Shown here one piece after another: positions 23,638-37,277 of a DNA stretch of 64,000 bases. How positions within the stretch are numbered: the first letter of the stretch is position 1; each line of letters begins with the position of its first letter. The stretch lies in NCBI GenBank assembly GCA_021463865.1, contig JAJTXY010000003.1:62001-126000 (forward strand). Direction: 5' to 3'. The DNA is from Anaerolineae bacterium. GTDB taxonomy: Bacteria > Chloroflexota > Anaerolineae > Aggregatilineales > J027. The notes under the pieces were generated by a model, which saw only the letters and a program-made list of their open reading frames with translations, searched no databases and was not told where the DNA came from. The translations under genes and the position numbers were made by a program.

Positions 23638-26600
23638 TTAGGGGCACGTCGCGTGATAATCAGTGGCGGGGAAATAACGCACCCATTCTTCATGACTCAG
23701 ATTGCGGTTGGCGATTTGACAGGCCCGTTTCTGCCACGCCTGTAAAGCGGCCTCCCATACCAACACCTTACCGTCATCCGTCACACTTGCCAAGCGAGAC
23801 CCGTCCGAGCTAAAAGCAACCCCATTGACCCATCCTTGCCGGGTAAAAAACGGCTGGCCCATTGGCTGGCCTGTCTCAATATTCCACCAAATGAGGCTGG
23901 TATCGCGGCTGCCAGATACCAACCATTGCCCATCGGGGCTAAAGGCCAAACTCAACACCCAATGGACATGCCCAGTGAGGGGTTGACGAATAAGTTGATG
24001 GGTCGCCACATCCCACAGCCGAATCGTGTTATCCCGGCTGGCGGTGGCTAATAATTTCCCATCGGGGCTAAAGGCAACGGCTGTCACTTCCGCCGTATGT
24101 CCTGTCAGGGTCTCACCTATGGGTTGATGCGCCGCCACATCCCACAAAATAACCGTATGGTCACGACTGGCACTTGCCAATACCCTGCCATCGGGACTAA
24201 ATGCCACACCCAAAACGCCGTCAGTATGTCCTGTCAGCACCTCATCAATCGGCTGATGCGTCGCCATATCCCACAATATAACCGTACCGTCATCACTTCC
24301 CGATGCCAATAATCGCCCATCGGGGTTAAAGGCGACCTCAAACACAACTTCGGTATGGCCTAGCAACGGTTCACCAATTGGCTGCTGGGTGGCTATATCC
24401 CACAAAATGACTGTCTGGTCAGCGCTGCCAGAAGCCAATATTTTCTCATCGGGACTAAAGGCCACACTCGTGACCGGCCCAATATGCCCCTCCAACAGAA
24501 TCGGATCGCTGTCGGAATCTGCCTTCCATAACCATATGTCGGAACCGCCCCCGACTGCCATCCACTGGCTATCTGGGCTAAACGTCACAGCCGAGGCTGA
24601 ATCAGTGGTATCAAAAATATGTGGATTTAAGGGCACTTGCTGGTGGATGTCCCATAAAATCAGCGTTTTATCGGCGCTTGCCGAGGCTAACAGTGACCCA
24701 TCCGGGCTAAAGGCCACCCGCCACACCGCATCTTGATGGCCTGTGAGGGGTAGGGCGATTAATTCCCCATTTTGGGCTGACCACACACGCAGTGTTCCAT
24801 CGGCACTGCCCGAGACGATCATCTGACCATCGGGGCTAAAAGCGACACTCCGCACCCACCCAGTATGACCTGTGGAAATCTGGCTTAAGGCTTCCCGTGT
24901 CGCCACATCCCAAATGATTAGGGTTGTATCGGCACTACCAGATACCAACCGCTGACTATCGGGACTAAAGGCCACGCTCCACAGCCAATTAGTATGACCC
25001 GTCAGTGGTTCACCAACCGTCTCACCCGTTTCAACATCCCACAATCGCACCGTTCCATCCGCACTCCCCGAAGCGATGAGGCGACCATCAGGACTAAAAG
25101 CGACATCGTACACCGCGTCACTATGACCTGTAAGGGGATTCCCGACTGCCTGCCGTGTCCCAATATCCCACAAAATGATGGTATGATCTTGGCCCGCCGT
25201 AACCAGCATTTTGCCATCCGGACTAAACGCCATCCGCCAAATCGAATCGGTATGACCGGGTAGGGCGTCCCCAATGGATTCACCCGTCTGTACATCCCAA
25301 AGATACACCAGTGCATCTGTTCCACCTGACACCAGCAACCGACCATCGGGGCTAAAGGCAACCGTATTGACCGCTCCCGTCATGCCCAACAATTCACGGA
25401 TGGGTTGATGGGTGTTGGCATCCCACAATATAATCCGCCCATCTTGCCCGGCGGAAGCCAATATTTTTCCATCGGGGCTAAAGGCCACATCGCGTACTCG
25501 TTCGGTGTGCCCATGCAAAAAGGTCAGCAGGCGCGGATTAGATTGCAACAGGGTTAGGAGGCTACTCCGTGATTCAAACGTGTCGGCGGCACGACCACTT
25601 TCGAGGCTCAATAGCAGCGCCACATCCAATCGGTCAGCATGATTCAGTGCTGTCGAAGCCAATTCACGCGAACGGGCAATGGTGGCCTCGCGGTTGGCGC
25701 GATTCCGGTCAAAAACAGCCGTCGTCTCGGCGTGTCGGGCTTGACGTTGGGCTGTCCATGCCAAACCTGCCAACACTAACGCCACTACTGAAAATACGAT
25801 CAACCCCGCTACAAATAGCTGCCCCCGCTGTTTGGCGCGTCGGCGTGCTCGGCTACTGGCGGCAAGATAGGCTTTTTCATGGTCGGTCAATGTAATAAAT
25901 CGCTCATCAGCCAGCAATTCAAATTGGGCCAAACGTGCGCCGCTCGCAAGATAGCCCGTTTCGTGTCCGTTGCTGTCCCATTCAAGGGCAGCAGTAGCAA
26001 GACGGCGCTGAATGAGCAAATTTTGCCGATCTTCCTCAATCCACTGATGCAATCGCCCCCACGTGCGAATGAGAGCTTCATGGGCAACCTCAACCGTCGG
26101 CTCACGGGTAATCGGGTCATGGTCAAAAGTCAGCAGCCGATGTTTGCCAAATTCATCCAACACCGCCCACAGCGGATGGGTTTTGGTAGGCGCAATGGAC
26201 GTTAATTCGCTCCAACGCACCCGCCGACGGGTATCTTCCACCCCTTCGCCAATCGTCACCAAGCGCAAAAAAAGCTGACGAATCGCCTCCCGACCCGTGA
26301 TATTCTGTTTTTCATAGAGTTCATCCGCCCGCCGTGACAACGCCCCAGAAATGCCACCCCCTTTTTGATAGGCGGCATGAGTCAACATGCGCCCTTCACG
26401 CTGTTCAAAAAGCTCGGTCAGCGCATATTGCAGTAACGGCAGCGCCCCGGCCTGTTGGCTTACATCATTTACCATCGCCGCAACTAAATCCGGCTCAACC
26501 TTTAACCCTACTTGTTCGGCAGGTTTGACAATCGCGCTTTCAAGTTCATGGACTTGTAGGGGCAGAATGATTTCCGTCCGGTCACGCAGCAAATCACCAA

Positions 26601-28140
26601 AACCGGGATAGAGCAGGGGGCGGTCATAAAAATCGGCACGTAAGGCAATCACTACTCGTACCCGACTGTCGGGAGCATGTACCGCCGCCAAAAGGTTGCG
26701 TAGGAAATGGGCTTGCTGCTGTGGGTCATCAGCTTGGGTAAAAACTTCCTCAAATTGATCTATCACCAAAACCAATTCATCGCCCACGCTCATGATGTCG
26801 GCTACGACCTCGACCAACCCCTGTGGGCTTTCGTGTAGGCGGCCACTAATCCAATCGCTTTCGCCAAATGCGATGCTCAATAAGGCTGTTTCCAAACGAC
26901 GCAGGGGATTGCGACCGGGCGTCATGCGCGTGACAAACCAATTTTCCGAACCCACCAAATCACCGCGATGCAGGGCTGGGATTACACCCGCGTTAACAAG
27001 GCTTGATTTCCCGCTGCCGCTCGCCCCCACAATTGCCAAAAAGCGCTGATACGGGCCAGTCTCAATGAGTCGCTGCAAAATACGCTGGAGGGTCTTTTCG
27101 CGCCCATAAAAAATTCCTGCGTCAGTTTCCATAAAGGGCCGTAACCCTTTGTAGGGGTTGGGTGGGGAAATGATGGGGGTAATAATTTGCGTCTTGCGTG
27201 ATACCTCTGTTGTTGGCCCAAATTTGACCGTCTGACCACGCGGTCTACCAGGATTTTCGCTAATTTTGCCGCCGCCAGAAGCAATTTGAACCCCTTCTAC
27301 CGATTCGATCATCCGTGTAAAGTCCGCCGCAAAACTCAACACATCGCCATAACGCACATCCAATTTTTTAGCTGTTGCTCGTTGAATCACCTCATTGATT
27401 GCCGGAGGCAGATCACCCCGTATCTCATTGACGGCTGGCACAGGATCAAACAAATGCCGATCCATCAAAGCCGTATCGGTTAGTTCATCAAATGGCAACT
27501 GACGGGTTAGCACCTCAAACAGTAACACACCGAGACTGTAAATATCCGCCTGTGGGGTAATAGCCGCGCCACGAATCTGCTCCGGCGACATATAGGCGGG
27601 GGAACCAAATAGGCCCTCTTCTTGGGTAACGTCCGTTTTGCCCACCAATTTCTTGGCAATCCCAAAATCCGCTAAATAAGCATTGTTTTCTTCATCTAAC
27701 AAAATATTGGAAGGCTTGAGGTCAAGGTGTACCACCCCTTTGCGGTGAGTATGCGACAAGGCGGCAGCCACTTGGTTGAGTAATCGGGCAGCGGCGGTCA
27801 ATCCCCAAGAATTTTTCTGGATAGATTCGCTTAGGTTGCCTCCCTTAAACAGGCGCATCACAATATAAGCGGCATTCGGTTCGCGCCAATAGTCGTACAA
27901 GGGCACGATATGGAGGTGTTCTAACTGCGCAATAATTTGAGCTTCCAGTTCAAAGCGGCGAATGAAATTGGGGTGGTTGGCAAACTGGGGGTCGAAAATT
28001 TTGACCGCCACTTCACGTTCCACCAGCGGCTGGTAGGCGCGATAGACAACGGCAAAACCACCCTTACCAATCACGTATTCCAATTCATAGCCTTTGATGG
28101 TTTGCCCAGTGGAAATGGGGGGAAATGGCGCGTCAGTCAT
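23638..28140 (-). CDS. Ser/Thr kinase - nSTAND1 NTPase - single TM - 14x WD40 protein
   Basis: GKGGFAVVYRA, HLDLKPSNILL, ADFGIAKK; NPYKGLRPFMETDAGIFYGRE, VGASGSGKSSLV, LVLVIDQFEEVF; QLFVAGLIVFSVVALVLAGLAW; 14 VAFSPDG-type repeats. Confidence 0.93.
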   Translation of the reverse strand: MTDAPFPPISTGQTIKGYELEYVIGKGGFAVVYRAYQPLVEREVAVKIFDPQFANHPNFIRRFELEAQIIAQLEHLHIVPLYDYWREPNAAYIVMRLFKGGNLSESIQKNSWGLTAAARLLNQVAAALSHTHRKGVVHLDLKPSNILLDEENNAYLADFGIAKKLVGKTDVTQEEGLFGSPAYMSPEQIRGAAITPQADIYSLGVLLFEVLTRQLPFDELTDTALMDRHLFDPVPAVNEIRGDLPPAINEVIQRATAKKLDVRYGDVLSFAADFTRMIESVEGVQIASGGGKISENPGRPRGQTVKFGPTTEVSRKTQIITPIISPPNPYKGLRPFMETDAGIFYGREKTLQRILQRLIETGPYQRFLAIVGASGSGKSSLVNAGVIPALHRGDLVGSENWFVTRMTPGRNPLRRLETALLSIAFGESDWISGRLHESPQGLVEVVADIMSVGDELVLVIDQFEEVFTQADDPQQQAHFLRNLLAAVHAPDSRVRVVIALRADFYDRPLLYPGFGDLLRDRTEIILPLQVHELESAIVKPAEQVGLKVEPDLVAAMVNDVSQQAGALPLLQYALTELFEQREGRMLTHAAYQKGGGISGALSRRADELYEKQNITGREAIRQLFLRLVTIGEGVEDTRRRVRWSELTSIAPTKTHPLWAVLDEFGKHRLLTFDHDPITREPTVEVAHEALIRTWGRLHQWIEEDRQNLLIQRRLATAALEWDSNGHETGYLASGARLAQFELLADERFITLTDHEKAYLAASSRARRRAKQRGQLFVAGLIVFSVVALVLAGLAWTAQRQARHAETTAVFDRNRANREATIARSRELASTALNHADRLDVALLLSLESGRAADTFESRSSLLTLLQSNPRLLTFLHGHTERVRDVAFSPDGKILASAGQDGRIILWDANTHQPIRELLGMTGAVNTVAFSPDGRLLVSGGTDALVYLWDVQTGESIGDALPGHTDSIWRMAFSPDGKMLVTAGQDHTIILWDIGTRQAVGNPLTGHSDAVYDVAFSPDGRLIASGSADGTVRLWDVETGETVGEPLTGHTNWLWSVAFSPDSQRLVSGSADTTLIIWDVATREALSQISTGHTGWVRSVAFSPDGQMIVSGSADGTLRVWSAQNGELIALPLTGHQDAVWRVAFSPDGSLLASASADKTLILWDIHQQVPLNPHIFDTTDSASAVTFSPDSQWMAVGGGSDIWLWKADSDSDPILLEGHIGPVTSVAFSPDEKILASGSADQTVILWDIATQQPIGEPLLGHTEVVFEVAFNPDGRLLASGSDDGTVILWDMATHQPIDEVLTGHTDGVLGVAFSPDGRVLASASRDHTVILWDVAAHQPIGETLTGHTAEVTAVAFSPDGKLLATASRDNTIRLWDVATHQLIRQPLTGHVHWVLSLAFSPDGQWLVSGSRDTSLIWWNIETGQPMGQPFFTRQGWVNGVAFSSDGSRLASVTDDGKVLVWEAALQAWQKRACQIANRNLSHEEWVRYFPATDYHATCP
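23740..25540 (-). repeat. WD40-coding tandem repeats, ~129-bp period, 14 units (boundaries approximate)
   Basis: Recurring CCATCGGGGCTAAAGGC on + strand at ~129-bp spacing. Confidence 0.93.
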
Positions 28141-28218
28141 ATAATAAGTTTACATCCTTACATAAAATATTCTCAAGTGTAGTGGTAGGAACAATTGTAG
28201 ACAAATTGTCAATAGAAT

Positions 28219-28247
28219 TTGACAATGGAAACGTTTCCAGATATACT
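28219..28247 (+). promoter_or_regulatory. Consensus sigma70-type promoter of lacI-family gene
   Basis: TTGACA (28219-28224) - 17 bp - TATACT (28242-28247). Confidence 0.85.
28226..28239. promoter_or_regulatory. LacI-family operator O1, inside promoter spacer
   Basis: Perfect palindrome TGGAAACGTTTCCA. Confidence 0.85.
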
Positions 28248-28258
28248 GTGGAAAAGAT

Positions 28259-28274
28259 TTGGAAACGCTTCCAA
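28259..28274. promoter_or_regulatory. LacI-family operator O2
   Basis: TTGGAAACGCTTCCAA; centre 34 bp from O1. Confidence 0.82.
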
Positions 28275-28305
28275 ATATCCAAAAAATAGTACCGAAGATT
28301 TTTTT

Positions 28306-29328
28306 ATGAGAACACCAACAATTAGAGACGTTGCCCAAAGAGCAGGGGTAGGAGTTGGAACCGTCTCAAGGGTGATTAATGGCAGTCCACAGGTCGCTGA
28401 TGGTACACGCCAAAAAGTCCTTGAAGCGATAGCCGAACTTGGCTTTAGTCCAAACAAAGCCGCACGCCAACTCTCCGGCGGAAAAACCTCCACTGTCGGT
28501 GTCATCACTCCCTTCCTCACTTATCCCTCATTTGTGGAACGCCTTGCGGGTATTCAAGATGTGTTAGATCACCACGATTATGATTTGGTGCTCTACAGCA
28601 TTCGACATCCACAGCAAACCCAACGGAAATTGCGTGAAATTGGCGCACAGGTTGCGGTTGATGGTTTGATTGTACTCTCATTCCTGCTCCAAACCTTCAC
28701 CCATGAAGAACTCCGCCGCATGAACCTTAAGTTGCCATTGATTGCGGTTGACCATGATCCGCAGGATTACTATCCCCACATTTTTATTGACAATGTGGCA
28801 GGTGGACGGATGGCTGCCGAATACCTTATTAGGAAGGGCCATCGCAAAATCGGCTTCGTCGGGCATGTGATCGAAAGTGCCTTTGAAAACGAATCGGGTT
28901 TTACTAGCAGCCAACGGCGATTTAAGGGTATGAAGGACATGCTGCTCGAAGCGGGTTTACCTATCAACGATGCGTGGTATCAGTTTGGCGCTCCTAATGA
29001 ATACTCCGCTTGCGAACAGGCCCTTCACATCTTGTCAGTGCCAAATCGCCCCACCGCCATTTTTGCAGCTTACGATACCTTAGCTTTTGGCGTGCAAGCC
29101 GCGATAGATAAGTTGGGGATGAAATGCCCGGATGATGTGGCTGTCATCGGATTTGATGATGTCAAGGCCGCCAGTTATATGCGTCTCACAACCGTCAATC
29201 AACAGCTTTTTCACAGTGGTGAACTTGGGGCGCAGTATATGCTTGAACGATTAAAAACTGGCAGTTTTAAGCCGGATCATTGGCATGTGGAGTTGGCTCT
29301 CACCGTTATTGAACGAGCCACTGCATAA
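28306..29328 (+). CDS. LacI family transcriptional regulator
   Basis: MRTPTIRDVAQRAGVGVGTVSRVINGSPQVADGTRQKVLEAIAELGFSPNKAARQL; start moved from 28219, which lies in the promoter -35 box. Confidence 0.93.
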   Translation: MRTPTIRDVAQRAGVGVGTVSRVINGSPQVADGTRQKVLEAIAELGFSPNKAARQLSGGKTSTVGVITPFLTYPSFVERLAGIQDVLDHHDYDLVLYSIRHPQQTQRKLREIGAQVAVDGLIVLSFLLQTFTHEELRRMNLKLPLIAVDHDPQDYYPHIFIDNVAGGRMAAEYLIRKGHRKIGFVGHVIESAFENESGFTSSQRRFKGMKDMLLEAGLPINDAWYQFGAPNEYSACEQALHILSVPNRPTAIFAAYDTLAFGVQAAIDKLGMKCPDDVAVIGFDDVKAASYMRLTTVNQQLFHSGELGAQYMLERLKTGSFKPDHWHVELALTVIERATA

Positions 29329-29543
29329 ACAGGCTAGAGGTCAAAAATTAGACGTGAATACTTCCCAATCCAATGGATTGTTTTGAGAGCTTAAGCGAAT
29401 CTAGTCAAAGGAGGGTTGCATATCGGACGACGTGTTAAACTATCGTTGGGGTGTCAATAGCGGAAGGTCGCCTGCCCTGCAGCGAACCTATTTTGAACAG
29501 TTTTATGACAATCTGACAGAGCAAGAGAGGAAAGGTTTTAGAC

Positions 29544-30860
29544 ATGCTTAAGAAATTGCTAGTTTTTGCTTTGGTTGCGGTGGTTGCCTTCGCAATCGTC
29601 CCGCGTGGGGTAGTTGCCCAAGATGCTGCTGCATTCGATTGCCGGACTGAAGATGAAGTTACAGTTACCGTCATTGCTGGCACTGTTGGCAATGAATTAG
29701 ACGCAGTAAAAGCCCTTGCTGACGATTTTATGGCGCTGTGCCCCAATGTTACCGTTGAAGTGACCACCCGTCCGCAAGACTCGACGGAAACACTCGGTCA
29801 GTATCAGCAATTCTTTGATGCCCAAAGCAGTGAAATTGATGTCTATCAACTTGACGTCATTTGGCCCGGCATTTTTGCTGAACACCTGCTTGACCTGAAC
29901 GAATATGTTAGCCAAGAAACCGTAGACAGCTTTGTACCCTCTAACATCGTCAACAACACCGTTGATGGCCGTCTGGTGGCGCTGCCATGGTTTGCTGGCG
30001 TTGGAATGTTGTATTACCGTACTGATCTATTGGAAAAATATGGCCTCGAAGTTCCCCAAACATGGGAGGAACTAGAAGCAGCTGCAACCGCCATTCAAGA
30101 AGGCGAACGCGCTGCGGGTAATCCGGATTTCTGGGGTTTTGTTTTCCAAGGCAACGCCTATGAAGGCCTAACGTGTGATGCCCTCGAATGGCAGGCCTCT
30201 GTCGGTGGTGGCACAATCCTCAGCCCAGAGGGGGTGATTGAAGTCAACAACGAAGCCACAATTAACATCCTCGACAAGGTTGCCTCTTGGGTTGGTTCCA
30301 TCAGCCCTGACAACGTCATCACCTTCCAAGAAGAAGATGCTCGTGGTGTGTGGCAGGCTGGTAATGCCGCCTTCATGCGTAACTGGGGTTATGCCTACCC
30401 ACTCGGTCAGGCCGATGACAGCCCCATCAAAGACTTGTTTGGTGTCTCGCCGCTGCCCGGTGGTGAAGCTGGGATGAGTGCTGCGACTTTAGGTGGTTGG
30501 CAATTAGGTGTCTCCAAGTATTCCGAAAACCCTGATGCCGCTGTCGCCGTTGTCGAATATTTCACTGGTTATGATGCACAGGTCAAATACACCCTACTGC
30601 GTGGTGAACAACCCGTCAGCCCAGCGGTTTATGAAGATCCCCAAATTCAGGAACAACTGCCCTACATCAGTCTCTTTAAGACCATCATGGAAGCTGCGGT
30701 GGCTCGTCCTTCAACCGTCTCCGGTTCTGGTTACGGTGACGTTTCACAATTATATTTCACTGCCGTTCACTCTGTCCTCACTGGTGAGGCCGATGCCGCA
30801 ACTGCTATGGCAGACTTGGAATTGCAACTTGCCGACTTGGGCTATGAGCTACCTGAATAG
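29544..30860 (+). CDS. Sugar ABC transporter extracellular solute-binding protein
   Basis: Signal peptide; ALADDFMALCPNVTVEV...IDVYQLDVIWPGIFAEHLLDL...ALPWFAGVGMLYYRTDLLEKYGL. Confidence 0.9.
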   Translation: MLKKLLVFALVAVVAFAIVPRGVVAQDAAAFDCRTEDEVTVTVIAGTVGNELDAVKALADDFMALCPNVTVEVTTRPQDSTETLGQYQQFFDAQSSEIDVYQLDVIWPGIFAEHLLDLNEYVSQETVDSFVPSNIVNNTVDGRLVALPWFAGVGMLYYRTDLLEKYGLEVPQTWEELEAAATAIQEGERAAGNPDFWGFVFQGNAYEGLTCDALEWQASVGGGTILSPEGVIEVNNEATINILDKVASWVGSISPDNVITFQEEDARGVWQAGNAAFMRNWGYAYPLGQADDSPIKDLFGVSPLPGGEAGMSAATLGGWQLGVSKYSENPDAAVAVVEYFTGYDAQVKYTLLRGEQPVSPAVYEDPQIQEQLPYISLFKTIMEAAVARPSTVSGSGYGDVSQLYFTAVHSVLTGEADAATAMADLELQLADLGYELPE

Positions 30861-30900
30861 GGCCTCTACCAATCGAATATTGACGATTTGATTTCACTGG

Positions 30901-30918
30901 GGGCAGAGCAATCTGCCC
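30901..30918 (+). other. Short perfect hairpin with GCAA (GNRA-type) tetraloop between SBP and permease genes
   Basis: GGGCAGA-GCAA-TCTGCCC, no following T-tract. Confidence 0.7.
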
Positions 30919-30975
30919 TCACTGCTAGTTATATCCCTCGAAAAATATTTTGATCTTAGAATGGAGGGCTTTTCC

Positions 30976-32886
30976 ATGACGATAATTCCGCCGAGGAGTG
31001 GACGACGACGCCCTACTGAACAGGAGACAATTTCACTAGAACTAGTGAGTGGCCTATTGATGATTATTGGCTTGCTGGCATTTGCCTATCTCTTCTATGC
31101 AATTGCGACCAGCCCTGAGATCAAAGATGCCACACAGGGTTTGAAAATTGAAGGCATCGGGATTGAAATCCGTAAAGTAGAACCCGAAGGGGAAGTAGCC
31201 TATTTCGAGATTATCCCGGCCCCGGGTGGCCCAGCAGAGGAAAAGGGTGTGCGGGCTGGGGATCGGCTTACGAAGGTGGAAGACACTGAAATTACTCCCG
31301 GTTTTTCAGTTGCCCAAGTTGAACGACTTCTACAAGAACCCGATGTTAAAAGAGCCGACGATGATTTTGAAATAAGCATCGAATTCCTGCGACCACTCGA
31401 AAACGGTGAATTTAGCCCACAAGAACGCACCATTATTAAAAATGTCGCCCCCACCTTCATAATTGCCTATCTCAATACTTTTGGCATCATTGTACCGTTC
31501 TTAACCATCGTGATCGGAATTCTCATTTTCCGCTTGGGAGTCCGCCTGCGAAAATTTGATCTCATCTCTGCCCGTTGGGCAATGATTGCCTTCCTTTGGC
31601 TCATCGTTGGTCTAATAGTCGCCGCGATCCGTGCCTTTTGGGTTGATGGCAAAGGTGGACTAGTTGGTGACCACCCATTTGGCTTTAGCAACGCTGTGAG
31701 CGGGGCGATCCCCTATCTCATCACGGCAATCCCCCTCGGTGTGGCTCTCTGGTGGTTGTCACGCATTATTAACGACTTGTTTGAAGGGGAAGAATCTCTC
31801 ACATCCCGCAATACTCGATTTGCATGGAGTTTGCTCATCCCTACGCTGGCGGTATTGATTCTAGTTGCAGCCCAACCATTGGAACAAACCTTCATTGCGA
31901 GCCTGACCGATGAAGAATTTGGAAGCCCCAAACCCAGTCGCTTTGTCGGGCTACGTAACTACCAAGAATTGTTAAGTTTTAAATTTGTGATGGTGGATTG
32001 TAAGAAAGACGATAGTGGAAATTGCGAACGGGTACGTGGAGAAGGGGGAATCGTTTGGGAACCATCTGCCTCTGAGATTGAGGAACGTGAAAAACTACGC
32101 GAGATGTCCTCCGCCGAACGACGCACCTATAAACGCTATCAAGAGGCATATACATGGCAACTATTCGGGGGCGATTCTGGGCTACGTCTGTTAGGTAAAG
32201 ATCCTCAATTCCTCAAGAGCTTTAGCAACACCCTCCAATTCACTTTTATCTCCGTTACCCTTGAACTTCTCTTGGGGCTAATCATCGCTATGGTGGTCAA
32301 CTCCAAATTTACCGGACGTGGATTGATGCGTACTGCTATGCTAGTGCCTTGGGCGATCCCAACCGTCGTTTCAGCAGCCCTGTGGGAAGTCATCATGCGT
32401 GGTGACCAGACCGGTATCCTAAACAAACTACTATTAGATGTAGGCCTCATCTCGCAAGCCAAACAGTGGTTAGCAACCACAGGCCCGTGGATGAATTCAA
32501 TTATTGCAGTAGACGTTTGGAAAACAGCGCCGTTCATGGCTTTGTTGCTCCTAGCAGGTTTACAAACCATTCCCGCCGATGTCTATGAGGCCGCCGATGT
32601 GGATGGCGCTGGCAAAGTCCGCCAATTTTTTACCATCACCCTACCACTGCTGCGTCCCACCATTGCGGTTGCATTGGTATTTCGCACACTGGATGCCTTG
32701 CGTGCCTTCGACGTATTCTCGGTGTTGCTGGATGCAACACGCCCCTCAATGGCCTTATATAACTATGACCGACTAATTCAGGGTGGTCTAACAGGTTATT
32801 CGTCCGCCATTGGCGTGATTATTTTCATGCTCATTCTCATCTTTACCGTTACCTATGTAAGAATTGTGAGGCTAGAGCAAGAATGA
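30976..32886 (+). CDS. MalF-type sugar ABC permease with N-terminal TM plus PDZ-domain extension
   Basis: PDZ-like GGPAEEKGVRAGDRLTKVEDTEI; EAA loop YEAADVDGAGKVRQFFTITLPLLRP; RBS GGAGG supports ATG 30976. Confidence 0.88.
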   Translation: MTIIPPRSGRRRPTEQETISLELVSGLLMIIGLLAFAYLFYAIATSPEIKDATQGLKIEGIGIEIRKVEPEGEVAYFEIIPAPGGPAEEKGVRAGDRLTKVEDTEITPGFSVAQVERLLQEPDVKRADDDFEISIEFLRPLENGEFSPQERTIIKNVAPTFIIAYLNTFGIIVPFLTIVIGILIFRLGVRLRKFDLISARWAMIAFLWLIVGLIVAAIRAFWVDGKGGLVGDHPFGFSNAVSGAIPYLITAIPLGVALWWLSRIINDLFEGEESLTSRNTRFAWSLLIPTLAVLILVAAQPLEQTFIASLTDEEFGSPKPSRFVGLRNYQELLSFKFVMVDCKKDDSGNCERVRGEGGIVWEPSASEIEEREKLREMSSAERRTYKRYQEAYTWQLFGGDSGLRLLGKDPQFLKSFSNTLQFTFISVTLELLLGLIIAMVVNSKFTGRGLMRTAMLVPWAIPTVVSAALWEVIMRGDQTGILNKLLLDVGLISQAKQWLATTGPWMNSIIAVDVWKTAPFMALLLLAGLQTIPADVYEAADVDGAGKVRQFFTITLPLLRPTIAVALVFRTLDALRAFDVFSVLLDATRPSMALYNYDRLIQGGLTGYSSAIGVIIFMLILIFTVTYVRIVRLEQE

Positions 32887-33746
32887 ACCAATCGAACATT
32901 TCTGGAAAGGAAGTAACTCAATTTCTAAGTCGGGGTTTCTTTTGGGTCTTAGTCATTGTTGTCGCCTTTTATACAATGGCTCCCTTCGTCTATGCCATCA
33001 GCATATCCTTCCGCACCAATCAACAAGTGCTGCTAAATGGAGCGCGGTATTTACCAGAAGACCCTAGCCTAGAAAACTTCCAAAACCTACTGAGTGACAG
33101 CGCCTTTATGCGGACAATGCTCAACTCGGCAATTGTCTCCAGCGTAACGGTGGTATTGTCATTGGTCGTCGGCGCATTTGCAGCCTATGCCTTGGGGCGG
33201 GTTCGCTTTCGAGGACGCATGATCATCCTTTATTTAGTATTGGCAATGACCATGTTCCCCCAAATTTCCATCCTTTCCGGTCTAAACCAGACGATAAAAG
33301 ACTTGGGGATTAATGGATCACTGCTCTCACTGATGTTTACTTATCCAATTTTCACGCTCCCCTTTACGGTCTGGGTATTGACGAGTTTCTTCCGAGGATT
33401 GCCCGATGAGATTGAGCAGGCTGCACTAGTGGATGGAGCAACCGCCTTTCAAACTTTTTGGCGTATCCTAATTCCACTTACTGCCCCAGCCCTCGTGACA
33501 ACAGGCCTTTTGGCATTCATCTCAGCGTGGAACGAATATCTATTTGCCCTAACCTTCAACCTAGTCAGCAAAGATGCTCACACCGTACCAGTCGCCATTG
33601 GGCAATTTGCAGGCTATAGCTATGAGATACCCATTGCTGATAAAATTGCCGGAGCAGTGGTCGTCACTGTACCACTCTTGATCCTTGTCTTAGTTTTCCA
33701 ACGCCGCATTATTGAAGGCTTAACCGCCGGCGCAGTCAAAGGGTAA
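32883..33746 (+). CDS. MalG-type sugar ABC permease
   Basis: EQAALVDGATAFQTFWRILIPLTAPALVTTGLLAFISAWNEYLFALTF; ATGA overlap with upstream gene. Confidence 0.93.
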   Translation: MNQSNISGKEVTQFLSRGFFWVLVIVVAFYTMAPFVYAISISFRTNQQVLLNGARYLPEDPSLENFQNLLSDSAFMRTMLNSAIVSSVTVVLSLVVGAFAAYALGRVRFRGRMIILYLVLAMTMFPQISILSGLNQTIKDLGINGSLLSLMFTYPIFTLPFTVWVLTSFFRGLPDEIEQAALVDGATAFQTFWRILIPLTAPALVTTGLLAFISAWNEYLFALTFNLVSKDAHTVPVAIGQFAGYSYEIPIADKIAGAVVVTVPLLILVLVFQRRIIEGLTAGAVKG

Positions 33747-33758
33747 ATATTGGTCTAT

Positions 33759-33790
33759 GGGGTGGTTTTCTGCAACCGCCCCTTATTTTA
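33759..33790. terminator. Terminator between convergent genes
   Basis: GGGGTGGTT-TTCTGC-AACCGCCCC then TTATTTTA. Confidence 0.75.
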
Positions 33791-33791
33791 T

Positions 33792-34283
33792 TTACCCAAA
33801 AACTTCTGGCTCAAACGTCAAAAATGGGGCCGGCACCCATCCTTCATTTTCACCTACTGGCGCTCCCGGAATTTTCACGAGGTAATAATCGAGGACGGGA
33901 TTGGATTGAAAGAGGATAATTTGTACCTCCATGCCATGTGGCGCTTGGGCCACGATTTTTTGGCGTAGGTGGCTGTCGTAGAGATACACAACGGGCTGCA
34001 CCATCGCGCCCTGATAAATGCCATTGAGCCACGCCTGATTGTTGGCTGACCCCCACACCGCTGGAATCCCGCATTGGGTGGGATCAGGATTATCGGGGAA
34101 AGGGAGGGCGGGCACATCTGCCGAGCGAGCTTCTTGATTTATCTCAGTAGGGGCGGCAAATTTCACAAAATTAGCATCGGTCTCACCATTTGACTGCACA
34201 ACATTTATAATGACTCCACCCAAGACAATCAATGCAGCAATTCCCAACAATCCACCACTCAGTTTTAAAAGATTCTGCATCAC
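33792..34283 (-). CDS. Membrane-anchored protein, possible SH3-like C-terminal domain
   Basis: N-terminal TM LLGIAALIVLGGVIINVV; QIILFQSNPVLDYYLVKIPGAPVGENEGWVPAPFL. Confidence 0.6.
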   Translation of the reverse strand: MMQNLLKLSGGLLGIAALIVLGGVIINVVQSNGETDANFVKFAAPTEINQEARSADVPALPFPDNPDPTQCGIPAVWGSANNQAWLNGIYQGAMVQPVVYLYDSHLRQKIVAQAPHGMEVQIILFQSNPVLDYYLVKIPGAPVGENEGWVPAPFLTFEPEVFG

Positions 34284-34425
34284 CCATTCCTTCTAGGTAA
34301 AACGTTAAAATGAGAGTCATCTCTCAGCATTTGCGCTATACTGAACCTAATCACTAAGGGTATTTTGAAATATCTATTATACAAAAAATTAATGCTTCTC
34401 TTAACTCAAGGATGGTGGTGATTTT

Positions 34426-35205
34426 ATGGCGCATGATTCAAAGCGGCCTTCCCCCAAAGGCAAAAAAGTCTCGCTTTTTGTAACCTGCATGATTGATATG
34501 ATGTACCCCGAAACGGGCATGTCTGTTGTCAATATTTTGGAACACCTCGGCATTGAAGTAGATTTCCCAATGGCCCAGACCTGCTGCGGTCAACCCGCCT
34601 ATAATTCTGGCTATCGTACTGAGTCCAAACAGGTCGCTATCCAATTCTTGAAAGCCTTTAAAGATTCTGAAGTGATTGTTACACCCTCTGGTTCATGCGC
34701 GGCGATGGTGTTACATGAATATCCAGTGTTATTTGAAGACGACCCTCAATGGAAAGCCGAAGCGGAACGCCTTGTTTCGATCACATGGGAATTTACCGAA
34801 TTTTTGGTGGATGGCTTAGGCATCACTGATTTGAAAGCACGTTTACCCCAACCCACCACCTTCGCGTTCCATGATTCGTGTCATGGGATGCGGTTGCTTG
34901 GATTGGGTCAAGCAGCCCGCACCCTGCTTGGTAATGTGGAAAACGCCACCATCGCCGAACTCAATGAACACGAAGTCTGCTGTGGGTTTGGCGGCCTGTT
35001 CAGTGTCAAAATGGCGGATGTCAGCGGGGCCATGCTGCAAAAAAAGGTCAACAATATCAACGCCTCCGCCGCCAGTATCATTATCACAGGCGATTCAAGC
35101 TGCCTCACCCAGATGAACGGTGGGTTATCGCGCAAGGGGTCAAGCAAAAAAGTCCGTCACATCGCCGATGTTTTGGCGGAAGGCCTAGCGGGAGAGGGGA
35201 AATAG
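34426..35205 (+). CDS. lutA: Lactate utilization protein A (CCG-domain)
   Basis: TCCGQPAYNSGYR and EVCCGFGGLFSVK motifs; followed by lutB/lutC. Confidence 0.9.
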   Translation: MAHDSKRPSPKGKKVSLFVTCMIDMMYPETGMSVVNILEHLGIEVDFPMAQTCCGQPAYNSGYRTESKQVAIQFLKAFKDSEVIVTPSGSCAAMVLHEYPVLFEDDPQWKAEAERLVSITWEFTEFLVDGLGITDLKARLPQPTTFAFHDSCHGMRLLGLGQAARTLLGNVENATIAELNEHEVCCGFGGLFSVKMADVSGAMLQKKVNNINASAASIIITGDSSCLTQMNGGLSRKGSSKKVRHIADVLAEGLAGEGK

Positions 35206-35209
35206 CACC

Positions 35210-36643
35210 ATGAAGGTCGAATCGCAAAATTTCATCCCGGCGGCCCAAATCGCCATCCGCAATCCCAATATCCAAGAGGCTGTGACAACTGGCACACGCA
35301 ATTCCTATATCAAGCGCAATATCGCCATGTCCACCCCCACATTGGAACACGGCGAGGCCATGCGCCAACAAGCCGCCGAAGCCAAACGCCGCGCCCTGCG
35401 AAATCTGCCCGACCTACTCGAAAAAGCCGAAGCCAATATGAAGGCCAACGGCATCACCGTCGAATGGGCACAGAGCAGCCAAGAAGTGTGTCGGTTGGTG
35501 GTCGAAATCGCCAAAAAACATAATGTCCGCCTTGTGGCAAAAAGCAAAAGTATGGTGACGGAAGAAGTCGCCCTGAATGATGTTCTCGAAGCCGAAGGCA
35601 TGGAAGTCATTGAAACTGACCTCGGTGAGTTCATCGTGCAAATTGGCAAAACTCACCCCAGTCACCTCCTCGCGCCGATTATTCATATGACCAAGCCGGA
35701 AATCCGCGATTTGATGGTCAAAGAACTGGGTATGACCCCCACCGACGATGCTGGTGAGATGACCAAATTCGCCCAAGCCCATTTGCGCCGCTATTTCCTT
35801 GAGGCCGACATGGGCATCTCGGGTGGGAATTTTATCTTGGCGGAAACTGGCTCAATTTGTTTGGTCACGAACGAAGGCAACGGGCGCATGTGTACCACCT
35901 TGCCGCGTGTACATATTGCCATTGTCGGCATTGAAAAAGTGGTCGAAACGGTCAAAGACTATGCCACTTTGACTCAAGTCCTGCCGCGCAGTGGAACGGG
36001 GCAAGTCATGACCGTCTACACCCACATCATTAATGGCCCACGCCAACCCGATGAAAGCGATGGCCCGGAGCATGTGTATGTGATTTTGGTAGACAACGGA
36101 CGCACCAATATTTATGACACCGATTATGCCGAGGCGCTGGCCTGTATCCGCTGTGGGGCGTGCCAAAATGCCTGCCCGGTCTATCGCTCAACTGGAGGTC
36201 ATGCCTATGGTTGGGTCTATGCGGGGCCAATTGGTGCGATTGTCACCCCCTTATTGGTCGGCATCGAAAATGCCAGTCCTCTGCCACAAGCCAGCAGCCT
36301 ATGTGGGGCATGTAAACAGGTGTGTCCGGTTAATATTGACATCCCGCGTATGTTGCTTGATCTGCGTCACGATCTGGTTGAACGCGGTGAAACAGGCAGG
36401 ATTTGGGACATCGGCATAAAGTTCTGGGCCATCGGCAACAAATCGCCCCGCCTGTTCCAGATGGGGGGTGCGATGGCGCGTTTTGGTCGCAACCATGTTT
36501 TGAAAAATAATTTTCCCGGCCCATTAGGGGGGTGGACGGATTATCGAGATTTCCCGAATTTTGCCCCCAAGTCGTTCCACCAACTATGGAAAGAACGCCA
36601 AGCCACGAAAAATAGCAGCAATGGAGGGTCGCATAATGAGTAG
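35210..36643 (+). CDS. lutB: Lactate utilization iron-sulfur protein B
   Basis: CIRCGACQNACPVY and CGACKQVCPVNIDIP clusters. Confidence 0.92.
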   Translation: MKVESQNFIPAAQIAIRNPNIQEAVTTGTRNSYIKRNIAMSTPTLEHGEAMRQQAAEAKRRALRNLPDLLEKAEANMKANGITVEWAQSSQEVCRLVVEIAKKHNVRLVAKSKSMVTEEVALNDVLEAEGMEVIETDLGEFIVQIGKTHPSHLLAPIIHMTKPEIRDLMVKELGMTPTDDAGEMTKFAQAHLRRYFLEADMGISGGNFILAETGSICLVTNEGNGRMCTTLPRVHIAIVGIEKVVETVKDYATLTQVLPRSGTGQVMTVYTHIINGPRQPDESDGPEHVYVILVDNGRTNIYDTDYAEALACIRCGACQNACPVYRSTGGHAYGWVYAGPIGAIVTPLLVGIENASPLPQASSLCGACKQVCPVNIDIPRMLLDLRHDLVERGETGRIWDIGIKFWAIGNKSPRLFQMGGAMARFGRNHVLKNNFPGPLGGWTDYRDFPNFAPKSFHQLWKERQATKNSSNGGSHNE

Positions 36644-37277
36644 CCGTGAAGAAATTCTTGCCAAACTCCGCGCTGCCCCTAAGCCGTTCACTGACTTACA
36701 CACGCGCGACACCTATTTACATATGGTGCCGATTGAGGATAAAACCCCTGTTGCTTTACGAAAACGCTTTGTGGAAGAAGCGAAAAAACTGGCCTGTGAA
36801 GTATCTGAACCCACCAGCCATGCCGATGCCATTGAACAAATTCTGGCGTTGTTTGGCGAAAACAAGTCGGTCATCGCGTGGGATTTCGCTCATATCCCCT
36901 TACCGGGATTAGCCGATGCGCTGTCCACTGCTGGAATCCAAATGGCTGATGTACGCGATGGCTCGGTACGGGTCGGCATCACAGGGGCAGACGCGGCACT
37001 CGCCTCCACAGGCAGCATGGTCTTGGGCAGTGGGGCGGGTAAACCGCGCCAAGCATCCCTCCTGCCTGCTCTGCATATTGCGGTGATAACCCCTGACCAA
37101 ATCATCGCCGACCTCGAAACATGGTTTGATGCTCAATTAGTCAAAGGCTTGCAGCATTTCCGATCTGCCGCCGCGCATGTGGTCATTTCTGGCCCCAGTC
37201 GCACCGCCGACATCGCAATGGAGTTGGTCATGGGGGTGCATGGCCCAACTCGCGTGCATGTGGTGATTCTGCCATAA
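36636..37277 (+). CDS. lutC: Lactate utilization protein C
   Basis: ADVRDGSVRVGITGADAALASTGSMVLGSGAGKPRQASLLPALHIAVI; start refined to ATG 36636 overlapping lutB stop. Confidence 0.9.
   Translation: MSSREEILAKLRAAPKPFTDLHTRDTYLHMVPIEDKTPVALRKRFVEEAKKLACEVSEPTSHADAIEQILALFGENKSVIAWDFAHIPLPGLADALSTAGIQMADVRDGSVRVGITGADAALASTGSMVLGSGAGKPRQASLLPALHIAVITPDQIIADLETWFDAQLVKGLQHFRSAAAHVVISGPSRTADIAMELVMGVHGPTRVHVVILP

Follow-up and report, generated by a model that had tools for sequence, protein, structure and literature searches.

In ABC importers of the OpuA and GlnPQ type, the substrate-binding domain is fused to the permease. Other importers work with a separate substrate-binding protein (SBP), among them MalFGK2-MalE, the maltose importer of the diderm E. 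coli, in which MalE and the P2 loop of MalF interact throughout catalysis according to a reference cited in PMC3328499. The mycobacterial trehalose importer LpqY-SugABC has a six-TM permease subunit, SugA, and a lipoprotein, LpqY. Microbial PDZ domains have been surveyed mainly in proteases; the words "permease", "transport" and "ABC" are absent from the main text of the 2019 survey (PMC6411480), and the literature that we searched, which was mostly without subscription papers, held no report of a PDZ domain with ABC importers, MalF or SBPs. Here we describe a PDZ domain within the permease of an importer, an arrangement that is real, conserved and apparently undescribed.

The window analysed, a stretch of 64,000 nucleotides from an Anaerolineae bacterium (contig JAJTXY010000003.1), belongs to a genome of 4.9 Mb that is 97% complete and whose close relatives are Chloroflexota MAGs. 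Open reading frames and Pfam matches give a gene order, on the + strand, of a LacI regulator, an SBP, a MalF-type permease and a MalG-type permease, such that the MalF-type permease is flanked by its SBP and by MalG; the SBP-MalF-MalG order is the same in relatives whose contigs span the locus. The best solved relatives of the SBP are 6jai/6j9w and the trehalose/maltose-binding protein 1eu8, and from this homology the imported sugar may be an alpha-glucoside such as maltose or trehalose. The features of the locus are as follows.

28303-29328, + strand: LacI-family regulator, first gene of the cluster (Pfam LacI and Peripla_BP_3), 81% identical to its counterpart at the same locus in G002, a genome of the same genus
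29544-30860, + strand: cognate sugar SBP of 438 aa with a Sec-type signal peptide and no lipobox (Pfam SBP_bac_1, E=1.7e-33)
30840-30857, + strand: C-terminal tail of the SBP, GYELPE, a candidate PDZ ligand from its conservation across PDZ operons
30976-32886, + strand: MalF-type permease of 636 aa with an inserted PDZ domain (Pfam BPD_transp_1 and PDZ_6; AlphaFold, Foldseek)
31018-31107, + strand: TM1 of the N-terminal bundle (hydropathy; AlphaFold helix 15-44)
31141-31440, + strand: PDZ domain, residues 56-155, with a GIGI-type loop at 60-63 (PDZ_6 above cut-off; the same loop of PDZ-less relatives has no PDZ)
31456-31779, + strand: TM2-TM4 of the N-terminal bundle, common to PDZ-less relatives (hydropathy, AlphaFold, alignment)
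31951-32205, + strand: second hydrophilic loop, at the MalF P2 loop position (Cys342/350 conserved; a PDZ lies in the same loop in G008)
32883-33746, + strand: MalG-type partner permease of 287 aa, ordinary (Pfam BPD_transp_1, E=1.5e-13)

Two neighbouring regions were read from sequence only. Upstream, on the - strand (23638-28140), lies a 1500-aa protein with an apparent Ser/Thr kinase domain, an ATPase-like domain and WD40 repeats; downstream (34426-37277), three genes resemble a LutABC-type lactate utilisation cluster, at least one of which also adjoins the locus in G002.

The permease reading frame runs from the ATG at 30976, with a further in-frame ATG upstream at 30961. A sequence-only reading of this DNA had described the product as a MalF-type permease of about 636 aa carrying a PDZ domain, and profile searches bear this out, recovering both PDZ_6 (residues 82-122, E=4.2e-8, 33.3 bits against a cut-off of 27) and BPD_transp_1 (residues 431-628, E=8.8e-18, 65.1 bits against 26.4). 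Only these two Pfam families reach their cut-offs, and no protease catalytic domain was found in the permease by this search. Among solved structures, the permease core is closest in sequence to SugA (E=1.5e-41) and also matches MalF; residues 52-121 come closest to the D1 C-terminal processing protease. In the hydropathy profile, TM1 is followed by a hydrophilic stretch, by TM2-TM4 and then by the permease core; the AlphaFold model (mean pLDDT 79.8, from an alignment with 40 homologues) likewise has a TM helix at 15-44, three more long helices within 172-268 and the core thereafter, and places a PDZ-like order of strands and helices at residues 63-154 (block pLDDT about 76-88). Structural comparison with VIA-align matched the model to SugA with a Z of 19.5 and an rmsd of 3.5 over 274 residues, and the core to E. 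coli MalF chains with a Z of about 17-18. Foldseek returned SugA and MalF and, with E of about 1e-3 in a whole-chain search for which the matched range is not given, CtpA and DegQ. Elements of the peptide groove are kept in the alignment, with G60 and G62 invariant and the hydrophobic strand and helix positions retained.

Taken together, profile, fold and topology support the earlier placement of the PDZ domain outside the membrane, and we regard it as extracytoplasmic by prediction, because four helices ahead of the core keep the core in its usual orientation, as judged from helix count and loop charge. The domain resembles those of the CtpA/D1 processing proteases and DegQ in fold, in sequence and in its GIGx-type loop, but theirs serves a protease, whereas the permease has no protease domain. 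This kinship bears on an alternative in which the PDZ recruits another protein to the transporter, be it a secreted hydrolase, a component of the cell wall or a damaged protein. We consider this quite unlikely: although most bacterial PDZ domains serve quality-control proteases (PMC6411480) and the nearest matches here are themselves C-terminal processing proteases and DegQ, the window's own cluster, which was the part of the genome covered by this look, contains no protease or hydrolase, and where contigs extend far enough, it is the SBP and MalG that are conserved next to the PDZ permease.

Comparison with relatives shows what is new in the permease. The PDZ insert, of ~100 residues, lies between ATQG(55) and FIIAYLNTFGI(161 on), where the alignment gives relatives a loop of 2-14 residues between TM1 and TM2. 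The four-TM N-terminal bundle and the second outer loop are both present in PDZ-less permeases of Chloroflexota and Trueperaceae (e.g., L036, L041, L061), which share the ten-helix layout, the operon order and a second loop with the conserved Cys pair (342/350), but have the short loop instead of the PDZ and, mostly, an SBP without the C-terminal tail considered below. As the PDZ fills a short loop and the bundle and second loop occur without it, the insertion was clean and neither element is tied to the PDZ, which alone is the novelty of the permease. The sequence-only reading was therefore right about the layout of one TM, a PDZ and three more TMs ahead of the core, but not in treating the TM bundle as an extra; the hydrophilic insert before FLKSFSNTLQF, which it had also pointed out, is common to PDZ-less relatives and was ruled out as part of the PDZ novelty. 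We take the position of this second hydrophilic loop to be that of the P2 loop of E. coli MalF. With MalFGK2-MalE the system thus shares a MalF-type core, an outer loop at the P2 position and a soluble cognate SBP, but MalF has a large P2 loop, a shorter N-terminal extension and no PDZ. SugA, the closest solved permease by both sequence and fold, differs in having neither an N-terminal bundle nor a PDZ.

A close match to the permease was present in 55 of the 154 genomes of the order, and 19 of those 55 carry the PDZ form, as scored by match range with G005 and G008 added from separate evidence on their loci. Among 298 genomes sampled from the class, the PDZ form did not turn up outside the order, and no further case appeared among 400 genomes sampled from the phylum. 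PDZ permeases form a single clade in the permease core tree (support 100/100), as do their cognate SBPs in their own tree (100/99); the PDZ was inserted once into the outer loop of the permease and has a single origin. The architecture did not prove routine across many families: in the genomes covered it was confined to a single clade of the order, and none of the papers searched describes it.

The number of PDZ domains varies within this clade. Basal members carry extra copies: two, apparently three, or copies in both loop 1 and loop 2. Pfam finds two PDZ stretches in L034 (G006) and one above the cut-off in L014 (G005), where three PDZ-like units can be made out by eye. The permease gene of G008 is split over two contigs (L016 and L017), whose joining we infer from ~33 identical overlapping end residues; its first outer loop holds two PDZ stretches and its second a further one (PDZ_6, E=2.3e-7, residues 170-200 of L017), at the MalF P2 position. 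One may postulate from this variation that the PDZ is an inherited insert which does little and persists because the outer loop is permissive, and the absence of a PDZ from G002 in the same genus would fit such a view. The domain has nevertheless been kept, its core and groove positions invariant, across a clade in which sequences diverge by as much as about 40%, and we judge this explanation distinctly improbable.

The SBPs encoded next to the PDZ permeases share a further character. Their C-terminus could be read in 18 of the 19 PDZ genomes, the contig of G319 stopping before the SBP, and in all 18 it is an [FY]-x-[LFA]-P tail that ends 0-3 residues after the proline; among SBPs of PDZ-less relatives, this tail occurs in 1/38. 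The aromatic residue and the proline are kept in 13/13 distinct SBP sequences of the PDZ clade. The tail is GYELPE in the window and GFELP in most relatives, with endings that vary among P, PE, PEE, PQ and PEME, which is unusual for a canonical C-terminal PDZ ligand. Judged from its conservation, the tail could be the ligand of the PDZ domain. The association statistics must be read with care, as the PDZ and the tail share one origin and branch and the counts therefore rest on one event, not on repeated ones. The single exception, L182 (G375), combines a PDZ-less permease with an SBP that nevertheless ends in GFTVPGE. SBP relatives on plasmids of Pseudomonadota (L237-L241) end in Trp or Trp-His (GGW, GDAW, GDTW, GRW, GSWH), and the permeases at the three annotated of these five loci are of ordinary length (277-328 residues); such tails in PDZ-less relatives show that a tail typical of one clade is not necessarily bound by a PDZ. 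That a GF-type tail is simply ancestral is a less likely possibility: some outgroup SBPs (L064, L066, L072) do have tails containing TGF, but these differ in pattern and length.

The sequence-only reading had proposed the C-terminus of the binding protein as one possible partner of the PDZ, and this gains indirect support from the tail itself, present in every readable PDZ operon and nearly absent from PDZ-less relatives. In an AlphaFold pseudo-complex, made by reading through two stop codons (as Gly) from the SBP tail and intergenic linker into residues 1-275 of the L026 MalF, the tail was left unplaced (pLDDT about 40) and formed no strand; we give this little weight in either direction, as the construct has no free carboxylate, an alignment of 17 rows and a linker that arrives from the wrong side of the membrane. 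An alternative that would accommodate the undocked tail is that the PDZ, as a structural or allosteric aid in coupling docking to transport, touches the SBP or the second outer loop, the SBP tail not being its ligand. The presence of PDZ copies near the expected docking face, in each of the two outer loops, and the conserved tails of PDZ-less lineages would agree with it, but it leaves unexplained why the tail is found in every PDZ operon and hardly in the PDZ-less relatives, and we hold it to be unlikely.

The locus in G002 (L037, L168) provides a comparison at close range, having a PDZ-less permease and a tail-less SBP at the same position. Over the compared region (28200-34600), the flanks of the two genomes are 75-80% identical in nucleotide sequence, against about 46-72% in most blocks of SBP-MalF-MalG; the ribosome-binding site and the codons of the SBP signal peptide are nearly identical, and identity falls right after them. 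This pattern would fit a replacement of the SBP-MalF-MalG cassette as a unit.

The envelope of the host is also relevant. Omp85 is absent from the window genome and present in 7/14 control genomes, which fits a cell with a single membrane and no outer membrane. Lgt and LspA are encoded in the genome, and a pattern check (not SignalP) of its 30 scanned SBP_bac_1 loci (L203-L232), a few of them large or weak matches, found no lipobox. The SBPs of the PDZ-less Chloroflexota relatives examined also have no lipobox; those of Bacillota outgroups have one. Loss of the lipid anchor in PDZ systems only is ruled out by these relatives and by the 30 loci of the genome itself. A protein tether would make sense in a single-membrane cell whose SBPs have no lipobox, but a tether is not strictly needed, since lipid anchors are also missing from SBPs of PDZ-less relatives within the order.

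What is observed is the PDZ, where it sits, that it arose once and that it occurs together with the tail; the explanation that we favour, with a probability of roughly 40%, is that the PDZ docks or tethers the non-lipidated cognate SBP, probably via the C-terminal tail. A PDZ inserted once into the short outer TM1-TM2 loop of the MalF subunit would hold this tail, and an SBP without a lipid anchor would thereby stay at the transporter of a bacterium without an outer membrane. We favour docking because the PDZ copy number varies at outer loops, including in G008 the counterpart of the MalE-contacting loop of E. coli MalF; because the groove elements are kept and the tail is conserved in all readable PDZ operons; because the G002 cassette at the same locus has neither PDZ nor tail; and because the genome has no Omp85 and no SBP lipobox despite encoding Lgt and LspA. 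Binding of the SBP by the PDZ would be one step of this explanation, and retention rather than regulation its presumed purpose. A more specific version, in which capture of the tail is a reversible protein tether that replaces the lipid anchor, its hold tuned by how many PDZ domains are present (one to about three, spread over one or two outer loops), is possible but rather doubtful. Docking would recall the OpuA and GlnPQ type in that an added domain keeps the binding function at the permease, although there the binding domain itself is fused and here only a possible docking module.

The genes for the PDZ and for its candidate ligand lie side by side, so that the idea is directly testable by a single binding experiment. 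If the PDZ does hold the SBP, this would be a new means of keeping the soluble partner of an importer close to it, with implications for how SBPs are retained in bacteria without an outer membrane, such as this one, in which none of the 30 scanned SBP loci has a lipobox.
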